From positions 1 through 26,715 of the IMG/VR virus record IMGVR_UViG_3300046817_000592: DNA of 26,715 bases. One strand, written 5' to 3'. The notes beneath the pieces were generated by a model. That model saw only the letters and a program-made list of their open reading frames with translations, did no database searches and was not told where the DNA came from. This DNA comes from a virus. The first letter of the stretch is position 1. The number at the start of each line of letters is the position of its first letter. The translations under genes were made by a program, and so were the position numbers. Shown here piece by piece: positions 23,287-26,715 of the stretch.

Positions 23287-23486
23287 GGGCGAACTCCCGG
23301 TAGCCAAGGGCGGTGGAACCAGCACATCGAGCCGGGCCGGCAATGCGGGCAGGGCGGCGGCTCGACCTCGGTCGGCTGCGCGCGCTGCGTCAGCTCCATG
23401 AGCAGCAGGCAGTCCTCGAGGAGGGTGGTCTGGGGGGCCAGGCCGATGACTTCGGCTACCTGGCGGTCGATAACAAGCTCGCACAT
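23283..23486 (-). CDS. Small Cys-rich protein, first gene of the leftward operon
   Basis: This is a 67-residue protein. ATG 23486 is preferred over the GTG at 23495 because GGAGA lies nine bases before the ATG and too close to the GTG. It has a helical N-terminal half (DRQVAEVIGLAPQTTLLEDC) and a C-terminal PCPHCRPGSMCWFHRPWLPG with C-x-x-C...C...H, a possible zinc site. Being first after the divergent control region, it may be the earliest leftward product. Confidence 0.68.
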   Translation of the reverse strand: MCELVIDRQVAEVIGLAPQTTLLEDCLLLMELTQRAQPTEVEPPPCPHCRPGSMCWFHRPWLPGVRP

Positions 23487-23578
23487 TTTCTTCACTCTCC
23501 GTTAGCGGTTGACCCCGCCGTCGGAAAGTATCAAACTTTAGGACTCTGCACAAGAACCCATAGAAGGAAAAATTCGAT
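23487..23578. promoter_or_regulatory. Divergent early control region
   Basis: These 92 bases separate the leftward recombination operon from the rightward replication operon and are the longest AT-richer gap of the early region. A perfect inverted repeat AAAGT-ATCAA-ACTTT (23525-23539) overlaps a leftward -10-like GATACT, 15 bases after a TTGTGC -35-like hexamer. A TTGACC hexamer (around 23509) could serve rightward transcription, but no good -10 at standard spacing was found. AAGGAAAA at 23564-23571 is the ribosome site of the next gene. The repressor-like product of that gene is the natural candidate to bind here. Confidence 0.6.
23525..23539. promoter_or_regulatory. Candidate operator: inverted repeat
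   Basis: AAAGT ATCAA ACTTT has perfect 5-base arms separated by five bases. Its place at the centre of the divergent promoter region, beside an HTH-protein gene, fits a Cro/CI-type operator. Only one copy was found, whereas lambdoid operators usually come in sets. Confidence 0.5.
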
Positions 23579-23824
23579 ATGGCTGCTATCCCGAAACGGA
23601 TGAGCATCAAGACCGCCTGTCGCCTGCTGCGGTGCGCGAACGACAACCAGCTGGCAAAGCGCATCGGCGCCAACCAGGGAACGGTGGGCTACTGGAAAAA
23701 GCAGGGCGGCATGGTCCCTCGCCTGTGGCGCGACCGGATCGAGCTGATTCTCCACCGCGAGCGCGGCGCCATCGCCGACGTTGATGCGGCGATCGCAAGG
23801 GTGGATGCCGTCAGGAGCGCCTAG
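23579..23824 (+). CDS. Cro/YdaS-like helix-turn-helix regulator
   Basis: This is an 81-residue protein with ribosome site AAGGAAAA before ATG 23579. Residues ~22-50 (DNQLAKRIGANQGTVGYWKK then QGGMVPRLWRDRIELI) form a helix-turn-helix very like YdaS/Cro-type phage regulators, including the W-K-K-x-G-x-V-P ending. The tail (~60-81) is Ala-rich and may mediate dimerisation. First gene of the rightward operon, next to a palindromic candidate operator. No opposing CI-type repressor gene is present in the window. Confidence 0.78.
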   Translation: MAAIPKRMSIKTACRLLRCANDNQLAKRIGANQGTVGYWKKQGGMVPRLWRDRIELILHRERGAIADVDAAIARVDAVRSA

Positions 23825-23826
23825 CC

Positions 23827-24684
23827 GTGGGAAGGATTCGATCGATCAAGCCCGAGCTGCCGCTGTCGGAAAACCTCGGCCGCTGCTCACGCGACGCGCG
23901 TCTGCTCTTCATCCTGCTGTGGACGATCTGCGACGACGAAGGGCGTGCGCGTGCGGTCCCACGCATGCTGGCTAGCCTTCTGTTCCCATACGACGACGAC
24001 GCCTCGAAAGAAATCGACGGCTGGCTCGCCCAGCTCCAGCGCGAGGGCTGCATTACCCGCTACGTCGTAGATGGCTCGCATTACCTTCAAGTTCACAACT
24101 GGTTGAAACATCAGCTGATCTCCCACGCAACGCCGTCGAAGATACCACCTCCTCCGGAGCCGCTCCAGAAAGTTCCGGAATCCTCCGGAAAACTCCGGCC
24201 TGATCTTGATCTTGATCTTGATCTTGATCTTGATCTGGATCTGGAAGGGAAAGGGAAAGGGAAAGGGAAAGGGAAAGATCAACAGCATGTGCGGCAAGCC
24301 GCACGCGAGGTGTCCAGATTCGCGGAGTTTTGGGCTGTCTACCCGATCAAACGCGGCAAGAAGACCGCCCACGCCAAGTGGGTGAGCAAGCGCCTCGACG
24401 CCCGCGCCGACGAGCTGATCGCCGACGTGCAAAAGCGCGTGAGCAGCGATGAGCAATGGCTGCGCGGCTACGCCCCTCACGCCTCGACCTACCTGCACCA
24501 GGAACGATGGGAAGACGAGCTGAATGGCCGGCGCGAACCTGTGCTGCCGCCCTCCAAAACCATGACCAAACTCACCAAGCTCCAGAGGAAAAAAGATGGA
24601 CAGCACGACCCACAGCAGGACATTGATCTTGAGCCGCATGCAGCGCCTCGTTTGCTTGAGCTTGGAGGGAACACCAGGCGATGA
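23827..24684 (+). CDS. O-like replication initiator with internal repeats
   Basis: This is a 285-residue protein with a GTG start at 23827 (AGGAG at 23811-23815). Residues 1-110 match the N-terminal domain of many phage replication proteins: MGRIRSIKPELPLSENL, ARLLFILLWTICDDEGRARA, LQREGCITRYVVDG and VHNWLKHQLISHATPSKIPP. Residues ~126-150 are low complexity, (DL)n then (GK)n. The C-terminal domain (~160-240) has FAEFWAVYPIKRGKKTAHAK and LRGYAPHASTYLHQERWED, typical of the phage O-like C-terminus. The repeats coincide with DNA arrays that look like an origin. The gene's end overlaps the next one by 89 bases. In lambda, O binds iterons within its own gene. Confidence 0.8.
   Translation: MGRIRSIKPELPLSENLGRCSRDARLLFILLWTICDDEGRARAVPRMLASLLFPYDDDASKEIDGWLAQLQREGCITRYVVDGSHYLQVHNWLKHQLISHATPSKIPPPPEPLQKVPESSGKLRPDLDLDLDLDLDLDLEGKGKGKGKGKDQQHVRQAAREVSRFAEFWAVYPIKRGKKTAHAKWVSKRLDARADELIADVQKRVSSDEQWLRGYAPHASTYLHQERWEDELNGRREPVLPPSKTMTKLTKLQRKKDGQHDPQQDIDLEPHAAPRLLELGGNTRR
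24153..24199 (+). repeat. Helically phased TCCGGA elements (candidate origin iterons)
   Basis: TCCGGA or one-base variants occur at 24153, 24164 (TCCAGA), 24174, 24184 and 24194 (TCCGGC), spaced 11, 10, 10 and 10 bases, close to one DNA turn. They lie inside the O-like gene, immediately before the tandem hexamers. They encode P-E-P...E-S-S-G-K-type residues, so protein coding does not obviously demand the spacing. Confidence 0.7.
24201..24242 (+). repeat. TGATCT hexamer array (6 perfect + 1 variant)
   Basis: Six exact TGATCT units (24201-24236) are followed by GGATCT (24237-24242), encoding alternating Asp-Leu. Each unit carries a GATC site, giving seven Dam-type sites in 42 bases. Such arrays easily change copy number by slippage in steps that keep the frame. 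Confidence 0.95.
24243..24276 (+). repeat. GGGAAA hexamer array
   Basis: Five exact GGGAAA units (24247-24276) follow GGAA, encoding (GK)n. The strand is purely purine across the whole array, with the pyrimidine strand opposite. Directly abuts the TGATCT array. Confidence 0.95.
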
Positions 24685-25057
24685 CGTGATCGACGGAACG
24701 GCCGAGATCTGGCTGGAGCGCCTGCAGCACTTCCACCCCGAGCGCCTGCGGTTGGCGTTCGAGGCGGTCGAGGCCCACTGCAAACGCTGGCCCACCCCGG
24801 CCGAGATCATCGAGTGCCTGCCAACCTACCCTCACGCTTGGGAGACGCCGGCGCCGGTCGAACGCCAGATTCCACCGGACCGCGAGGCCGGCCAGCGCAT
24901 CAGCGACCGGGCGCAACGCAATCGCGACCGGGCGCACAAGGCCGTTGCCGACTGCGCCAAGATGCTCGACGTCACGCTGCCACCCGGCACCATCGGGGCA
25001 GAGACATGCGATCCGGCGACTGCCGCCGAACTCAAGGCCGCAGGGAAGCTCGGCTGA
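24596..25057 (+). CDS. Replicative-helicase-loader-like protein
   Basis: This is a 153-residue protein. ATG 24596 is preceded by AGAGGAAAAAAG, a strong ribosome site, so the 89-base overlap with the initiator gene seems genuine; M15 at 24638 is a weaker alternative. Residues ~38-75 (EIWLERLQHFHPERLRLAFE, then KRWPTPAEIIECLPTYPHAW) resemble the helical core of phage helicase loaders of the lambda P / G39P kind. The C-terminal half is Arg/Ala-rich and helical (DRAQRNRDRAHKAVADCAKM). The place right after the O-like gene is that of lambda P. It is a loader by context and weak motif; no ATPase motif is present. Confidence 0.62.
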   Translation: MDSTTHSRTLILSRMQRLVCLSLEGTPGDDVIDGTAEIWLERLQHFHPERLRLAFEAVEAHCKRWPTPAEIIECLPTYPHAWETPAPVERQIPPDREAGQRISDRAQRNRDRAHKAVADCAKMLDVTLPPGTIGAETCDPATAAELKAAGKLG

Positions 25058-25524
25058 TGCAGTACGAATTCCACCACGTGCTGAACAAGCTCGACCCGCG
25101 GCGCGACGGCATCCTCGCCAGTACGATCGCGCGGCTGCAGGCGCTCCCGGTCGACCAGTCCTTCGACGTGACCGTCGAGCATCACAAGCGCGAGGCGACC
25201 GACAAGCAGCGCCGCTCGATGTGGGGCGTCGCCTATGTCGCGCTGATGGCGCACATCGGCCTGCGCGGCGCGGAGGAAAAAAAGGATCTGCACCGCGAGA
25301 TGTGCAAGCGCTACTTCGGCGAGCGCGTGACCGTCGGCGGCATCCGCATCCCGGCGCGCACGACGACCAAGGACGAAGAGGGCAAAGACAGCCGGCTCAC
25401 CACCGTCGAGCAGCTGGACTTCTACGCCTACCTGCAGCAATTCGGCGCCGAGATCGGCTGCTACGTCCCTGACCCTGATCCATTCTGGCGCGAGAAGGCC
25501 GAGAAGGAGGCCCATGCTCCCTGA
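25057..25524 (+). CDS. ninB: NinB-like recombination protein
   Basis: This is a 155-residue protein with ATG 25057 overlapping the previous TGA (TGATG) and GGGAAG ten bases upstream. Residues ~40-75 (FDVTVEHHKREATDKQRRSM then AYVALMAHIGLRGAEEKKDL) and ~85-130 (ERVTVGGIRIPARTTTKDEE, STVEQLDFYAYLQQFGAEIG-like end) match NinB of lambda, a single-strand-binding recombination mediator. The order O-like, P-like, NinB is exactly that of lambdoid phages. Overlaps the next gene by 11 bases. Confidence 0.82.
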   Translation: MQYEFHHVLNKLDPRRDGILASTIARLQALPVDQSFDVTVEHHKREATDKQRRSMWGVAYVALMAHIGLRGAEEKKDLHREMCKRYFGERVTVGGIRIPARTTTKDEEGKDSRLTTVEQLDFYAYLQQFGAEIGCYVPDPDPFWREKAEKEAHAP

Positions 25525-26486: not shown

Positions 26487-26715
26487 CCCGGCACGCGCAT
26501 GCAAACCGCGTCGATGGCAACCAGTCGGCCATCGTGGACGCGCTGCGCCGGATCGGCGTACGCGTGAAGGTCACCAGCAGCGCCGGCGACGGCTTGACGG
26601 ATTTGCTGATGTTCTACCGCGGGCAAACCCTGATCGGCGAGATCAAGCGCGACGACGACCAGGAACTCACGCCGGCGCAGGCCGAACTGCACGCCCTGGC
26701 GCTCGAAGCCGGTGT
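26483..26715 (+). CDS. VRR-NUC/PD-(D/E)XK nuclease, truncated by the window edge
   Basis: 77 residues are visible from ATG 26483. GNQSAIVDALRRIGVRVKVT is a helix then strand; GDGLTDLLMFYRGQTLIGEI followed by KRDDDQELTPAQAELHALAL shows D...(E-x-K) and a T-P-A-Q helix, the catalytic core of VRR-NUC-type nucleases. In phages these can replace RusA/NinG Holliday junction resolvases, which fits this nin-like position. The C-terminus lies beyond the window. Confidence 0.82.
   Translation, partial: MTRHAHANRVDGNQSAIVDALRRIGVRVKVTSSAGDGLTDLLMFYRGQTLIGEIKRDDDQELTPAQAELHALALEAG

Follow-up and report, generated by a model that had tools for sequence, protein, structure and literature searches.

Phage lambda carries the binding sites for its replication initiator within the initiator gene itself; its O protein bends the 19-bp iterons that it binds in gene O and opens up the 40-bp A+T-rich region next to them (PMC5043065, PMC7466680). 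RepA_N initiators bind boxes situated centrally in rep, where the DNA of the boxes codes for a deletable linker in the protein (PMC5703833), and the rep boxes of pSK41 and pTZ2162 are semi-palindromic with 8–9-bp inverted repeats around an A-tract (PMC7145576). The iteron plasmid origins of P1, F, and RK2 contain helix-phased initiator-binding repeats beside the region that is melted (PMC5043065). The replication origins of most phages are unknown, and we describe here a DNA pattern with a period of one helical turn that predicts an origin to about 100 bp from sequence alone.

The window, which is the entire 26,715-bp stretch of viral DNA analyzed here, contains a replication initiation protein gene encoding two domains, followed by a gene in the position of lambda P:

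23827–24684, + strand: replication initiation protein gene, GTG start, 285 aa (PHROG matches)
23827–24162, + strand: N-terminal winged-helix domain with helices 22–31, 45–52, and 59–72 and wing 76–89 (AlphaFold2 model, mean pLDDT 93.4)
24301–24561, + strand: C-terminal helical domain (about aa 159–245), FxxFWxxYPxK...TWLNxxRWxDE (homologue alignment; model pLDDT 72)
24596–25057, + strand: gene that follows, occupying the lambda P position; family of unknown function (phrog_8159, 5.6e-19)

The initiator matches phrog_1408 (1.4e-30, residues 1–117) as well as PHROGs 16167, 2149, and 270, all annotated as replication initiation protein, and its N-terminal domain is 62–67% identical to those of the nearest viral homologues. 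Neither Pfam nor NCBIfam yields a match to the window initiator, the RepA_N Pfam domain is matched neither by this protein nor by 42 homologous domains, and there is no O-like PHROG or Pfam match. The earlier note had described the protein as O-like, which holds only for its layout and probable mechanism; its matches are to PHROG initiation families, and homology to lambda O is not detectable. RepA_N initiator structures are among the top fold matches of the N-terminal domain model, although the match to 4pql (Foldseek probability 1.00, E 0.013; VIA Z 7.9, rmsd 3.2 over 87 residues) has a Z below 8, the level of the common winged-helix background, and these matches may reflect only a common winged helix. 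The initiator has no sequence match to solved structures, and the lack of a closer structural family among the matches listed is not evidence for a new fold. The model of the C-terminal domain is of moderate confidence and gave no fold match; this domain is possibly a helicase-loading or partner module.

The sole match of the gene in the P position is to phrog_8159. This gene may share 89 bp (24596–24684) with the initiator gene, and a homologue on a Klebsiella plasmid overlaps an annotated replication protein P by an equal 89 bp. Family members are present on two circular plasmid records with phage-type regulators, one from Bradyrhizobium (46.6 kb; L256, 3001–3696) and the other this Klebsiella plasmid (51.5 kb; L257, 1201–2184), and these may be phage-plasmids using an initiator of this family. 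NinB is encoded downstream (25054–25521), and Erf and a RecE-type exonuclease are encoded in the divergent leftward arm, neighbors that fit a lambda-like early region. A sigma-70 promoter scan of 23300–24700 identified no promoter; positions 23523–23582, immediately upstream of 23579 in the gap separating the divergent arms, are also among the least stable regions of the record and likely correspond to the early promoter/operator region.

Three consecutive repeat arrays lie between the N- and C-terminal domains: TCCGGA-type, (TGATCT)7, and (AAGGGA)5.5. By direct reading, the TCCGGA-type hexamers start at 24153, 24164, 24174, 24184, and 24194, with steps of 11, 10, 10, and 10 bp, and in order are TCCGGA, TCCAGA, TCCGGA, TCCGGA, and TCCGGC (three exact, two with a single mismatch). 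Including its flanks, the repeat unit approximates the 8-bp palindrome YTCCGGAR:

24152–24159, + strand: iteron 1, CTCCGGAG (sequence; synonymous nulls 0/5000)
24163–24170, + strand: iteron 2, CTCCAGAA, one core mismatch, 11 bp after iteron 1 (sequence; TCCAGA variant also in L078)
24173–24180, + strand: iteron 3, TTCCGGAA, 10 bp after iteron 2 (sequence; TRF period 10)
24183–24190, + strand: iteron 4, CTCCGGAA, 10 bp after iteron 3 (sequence; TRF period 10)
24193–24200, + strand: iteron 5, CTCCGGCC, one core mismatch, 10 bp after iteron 4 (sequence; TRF period 10)

Tandem Repeats Finder (TRF) independently calls a period-10 array at 24163–24198 with the consensus CTCCGGAAAA. The five-element chain is the single instance in the window of a chain of at least four hexamers at 10/11-bp steps. 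Two synonymous nulls that retain the same protein, codon permutation and codon resampling, never matched the five-element chain (0/5000 in each). The five elements and their spacings are thus as the earlier note reported them, and its placement of the array in a hinge is borne out by the winged-helix domain on one side and the C-terminal domain on the other. Since neither 10 nor 11 is divisible by 3, the copies lie in different reading frames. There are 18 occurrences of TCCGGA in the whole window where 9.7 are expected (2 of 100 shuffles are as high), a mild excess that does not explain the phasing. We consider it very probable that the initiator binds this array as part of a replication origin lying within the gene.

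Relatives of the initiator were gathered from phages, plasmids, bacterial genomes, and viral contigs, and those with readable hinges were reduced to a non-redundant 140 at 90% N-terminal identity; 84 of these, including the window, are close (at least 55% identical). Hexamer recurrences were counted by lag in an 80-nt region beginning 20 nt past a conserved HQ and were compared with a protein-preserving null. The close set has 490 recurrences at lag 10 against 14.1 expected (z about 80), and 230 against 7.5 at lag 20, an excess indicating that it is the DNA spacing that is conserved and not the peptide. The hexamer is TCGCGA in 82 of the 84, usually in two or three copies, and the exceptions are the window (TCCGGA) and L118. 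Gaps between exact TCGCGA copies (n=118) are 10 bp in 99 cases, 11 bp in 3, and 20–21 bp in 13, with the 20–21-bp gaps corresponding to one degenerate copy in between. At least two exact copies 10 or 11 bp apart are present in 63 of 83 relatives, whereas eight control palindromes form a phased pair in none of them (0/83). The extended site in close homologues is YTCGCGAR, and the equivalent Y...R frame surrounds four of the five window copies. The earlier note had asked whether spacing is kept while residues vary, and this is what is seen; the 10-bp step is kept over the 84 close homologues, in all frames and with a varying hinge peptide, which is the opposite of amino acids being kept and the 10-base spacing lost.

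The two arrays that follow the iterons also encode simple peptides:

24201–24242, + strand: (TGATCT)7 array, coding for DLDLDL; candidate DNA unwinding element (TRF; stability; codon choice)
24245–24277, + strand: (AAGGGA)5.5 purine-strand array, coding for GKGKGK (TRF)

In silico, the least stable 40-bp and 80-bp segments of the 26.7-kb record are 24203–24242 and 24203–24282, respectively, and their position adjoining the array matches the expectation for an unwinding element beside iterons. Codon choice in (TGATCT)n goes beyond what the protein needs (11/20,000), and CTT accounts for 5% of the leucine codons in the other genes of the window. At the downstream place relatives have 5–7-bp GGA-type repeats (GGACCAA, GGATCTA, GGAAGGG; 297 recurrences at lag 7 against 12 expected), and in the close homologues these are on average purine-rich on the coding strand and only mildly unstable. 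The mild instability counts against the origin reading, and a melting role of the downstream tract is better supported in the window than across the family.

The relatives have a second TCGCGA cluster at nt 100–150 of the gene, within codons for the second helix of the winged-helix domain:

23947–23979, + strand: codons 41–51, place of the second TCGCGA cluster of relatives; absent in the window (homologue comparison)

This cluster is commonly 194 bp, and also 204 bp, upstream of the hinge sites; a claim of looping from this regular distance was set aside, as it may merely reflect a fixed domain length. Two exact TCGCGA copies are present here in 72 of 83 relatives, normally 10 bp apart and often with CTCGCG 10 bp upstream, against a TCGCGA background, taken over 3 kb, of about 0.03 per 50 bp. 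Synonymous codons are frozen at the cluster (homozygosity 0.815 vs 0.379 elsewhere, p = 7e-6), with S45 encoded by TCG in 96%, R46 by CGA in 93%, and A49 by GCG in 98%. The window and several other lineages have lost the cluster, and all but L118 retain the one in the hinge, which makes the hinge cluster the core element. Paired clusters separated by 194 bp could form a repression loop, and would suit an alternative in which the array is an operator by which the initiator represses its own transcription (or blocks RNA polymerase), with the origin elsewhere. We regard this as improbable, since the sites are far within the gene and not at a promoter, they adjoin the weakest duplex of the record, a second repeat array follows the hinge sites in relatives, and the hinge cluster persists in lineages without the upstream one.

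Viral contigs were scanned, independently of any protein, for the pattern TCGCGA-N4-TCGCGA-N4-TCGCGA, and 71 of the 80 loci found are inside a gene matching the initiator profile. One further locus is in the hinge of a Lin1244_N (PF14297) protein (L302, 2253–3257, − strand), with three TCGCGA copies at 10 bp, and this may represent another initiator family with an equal phased site. Among six prophage-bearing genomes the triple occurs once in four and is absent from two, and of 369 genomes sampled from a single class, it is present only in the one already known to carry the prophage. With the TCCGGA version, four of 54 loci are in initiator genes, including those of distant, Firmicute-like members, and a TCCGGA array alone was rejected as a specific marker, in contrast to TCGCGA. 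TCCGGA arrays at 10 bp are present in many phage contigs outside recognized initiator genes (L208, L210, L216, L219, L221, L227, L231, L251, L252, and others).

In a tree of 146 N-terminal domains (about 104 columns, with many unresolved forks), motif class is strongly clustered, requiring 36 changes as compared to 70.6 when shuffled. The window is within a supported TCGCGA clade on a long branch, and its TCCGGA is therefore most simply a switch from TCGCGA; TCCGGA requires at least three changes on the tree. No simple specificity code emerged for helix residues 36–55; TCCGGA is found with very different sequences (the window, L078, and L223), and S45P is also present in TCGCGA users. The sites could instead be bound by another protein, such as a host nucleoid protein, a phage repressor, or a partition protein, which would accord with no simple winged-helix residue code accounting for the switch to TCCGGA. 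This is quite improbable, however, given that the DNA pattern and the initiator gene travel together in viral contigs and that initiators with one class of motif tend to group on their tree.

Distant homologues also have phased repeats, with 11 bp as the commoner step (lag 11, 140 vs 7.6 expected; lag 10, 43 vs 2.8). The longest array found is in the hinge of the L089 initiator gene (at 2501), with 13 copies of AGCAGTGC at exact 11-bp steps. Phrann gp60 contains four copies of TCGCGAG at 11 bp, L078 contains five of CCTCCGGA/CCTCCAGA with steps of 10, 11, 11, and 10 bp, and other motifs at 10 or 11 bp include GTCGTCGA (L062) and ACTCAC (Gsput1). Informally, palindromes of even length (TCGCGA, TCCGGA) tend to be spaced by 10 bp and those of odd length (TCGWCGA, CTCASTGAG) by 11 bp, although Phrann, with TCGCGAG at 11, departs from this. 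No significant 10/11-bp chain is present in some gammaproteobacterial relatives (HK639, LESphi2), and this counts against the origin reading. The hinges of some relatives contain an insert resembling an HNH endonuclease (L014, 1201–2283, e.g. RCLKCGCVESLTIDHIVPLSKGG; also the initiator genes of L032, L071, and L094), and no good 10/11-bp chain could be identified in these hinges; the insert may be a homing-type nuclease lodged at the origin.

Neutral tandem duplication or slippage is a very improbable explanation of the repeats; the downstream 6-bp arrays do resemble slippage products, but the hexamer and the 10-bp step are constant despite variation in the 4-bp spacers between sites, and position and step persist over large divergence, several host groups, and distant homologues. 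That the repeats follow from selection for the linker peptide (SRxLAxPRExS and the like), the DNA itself having no role, is hardly credible, for although the hinges of TCGCGA relatives read as recurring peptides (e.g. SRILANPRESS), steps of 10/11 bp are not codon multiples, TCGCGA copies occupy all three reading frames (70, 51, and 79 in frames 0, 1, and 2 of the close set), and shuffles that preserve the protein always fall far short of the repeats observed, which refutes the peptide as sole cause.

The reading of the array as the initiator-binding part of an intragenic origin draws on the uniqueness of the phased chain and its absence from both synonymous nulls, on the conserved 10-bp lag, frames, and extended site in close homologues and the 10/11-bp lags in distant ones, and on the co-location of TCGCGA triples with the initiator gene in blind scans. 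It is also consistent with the predicted easily melted tract adjoining the array, the winged-helix fold with RepA_N structures among its top matches, and the lambda-like gene neighborhood. The candidate origin proposed in the earlier note is thus supported, but not by the GC-skew check that it suggested; cumulative skew falls over the fragment to a minimum at 26533 and is uninformative, and since the record is a fragment, neither skew nor coverage can place an origin.

In the mechanism that we propose, the N-terminal winged-helix domain would bind the palindromic YTCCGGAR sites, and the one-turn spacing would cause bound copies to stack on one face of the DNA and to bend or strain it. This strain, together with negative supercoiling, would open the weak (TGATCT)7 tract directly downstream, and the purine-strand repeat (AAGGGA)5.5 may keep hold of the opened strand. 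Recruitment of the host helicase would follow, through the C-terminal domain and/or the product of the overlapping P-position gene. A single stretch of DNA would in this way serve two codes, one for protein and one for the origin. The prediction reaches a large phage and prophage family whose N-terminal domain matches no Pfam model at cut-off, and the natural initiator–iteron pairs, with their apparent specificity switch, make co-evolution and the role of helical phasing directly testable. No earlier description of these arrays was found in the literature searched, which lay largely outside subscription journals, and one may exist. A broader proposal, toward which we lean slightly more to doubt than to acceptance, is that these loci form a widespread class of phage origin, written twice in its own initiator gene (in the winged-helix codons and in the linker) and followed by a 5–7-bp strand-biased repeat acting as a single-strand loading track; the iteron sequence would be free to switch (TCGCGA, TCCGGA, TCGWCGA, CTCASTGAG, and GCAC types) with the helical spacing fixed, creating new replication specificities.

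The initiators of PHROGs 1408, 2149, and 16167 are of the same protein family, with annotated relatives including Phrann gp60 and the Gsput1 protein, but these are annotated by protein only, with no described origin or iterons found for them in the literature searched, and the window has TCCGGA where its clade has TCGCGA. The P1, F, and RK2 origins are similar in having helically phased repeats and an adjoining melted region (predicted in the window). In those origins the iterons, about 19–22 bp long, generally do not overlap the rep coding sequence. The locus resembles ori-lambda in that repeated sites and an easily melted tract (in silico in the window) occupy the center of an initiator gene that belongs to an early operon and is followed by a gene in the P position. 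It differs in that lambda has 19-bp inverted repeats bound by O dimers whereas the window has 6–8-bp palindromes every 10–11 bp, in agreement with the different, shorter iteron described in the earlier note, and in the lack of detectable homology between the window protein and lambda O. With the RepA_N initiators of pSK41 and pTZ2162 it shares a winged-helix N-terminal domain, repeats central in the gene that encode a linker, and a separate C-terminal domain, but the window protein lacks a RepA_N Pfam match and the fold similarity is within the common winged-helix background. Because the shared design is that of a binding domain, a linker doubling as the origin, and a second domain, we propose by analogy that the window system works like those of lambda O and RepA_N, and we claim membership in neither.
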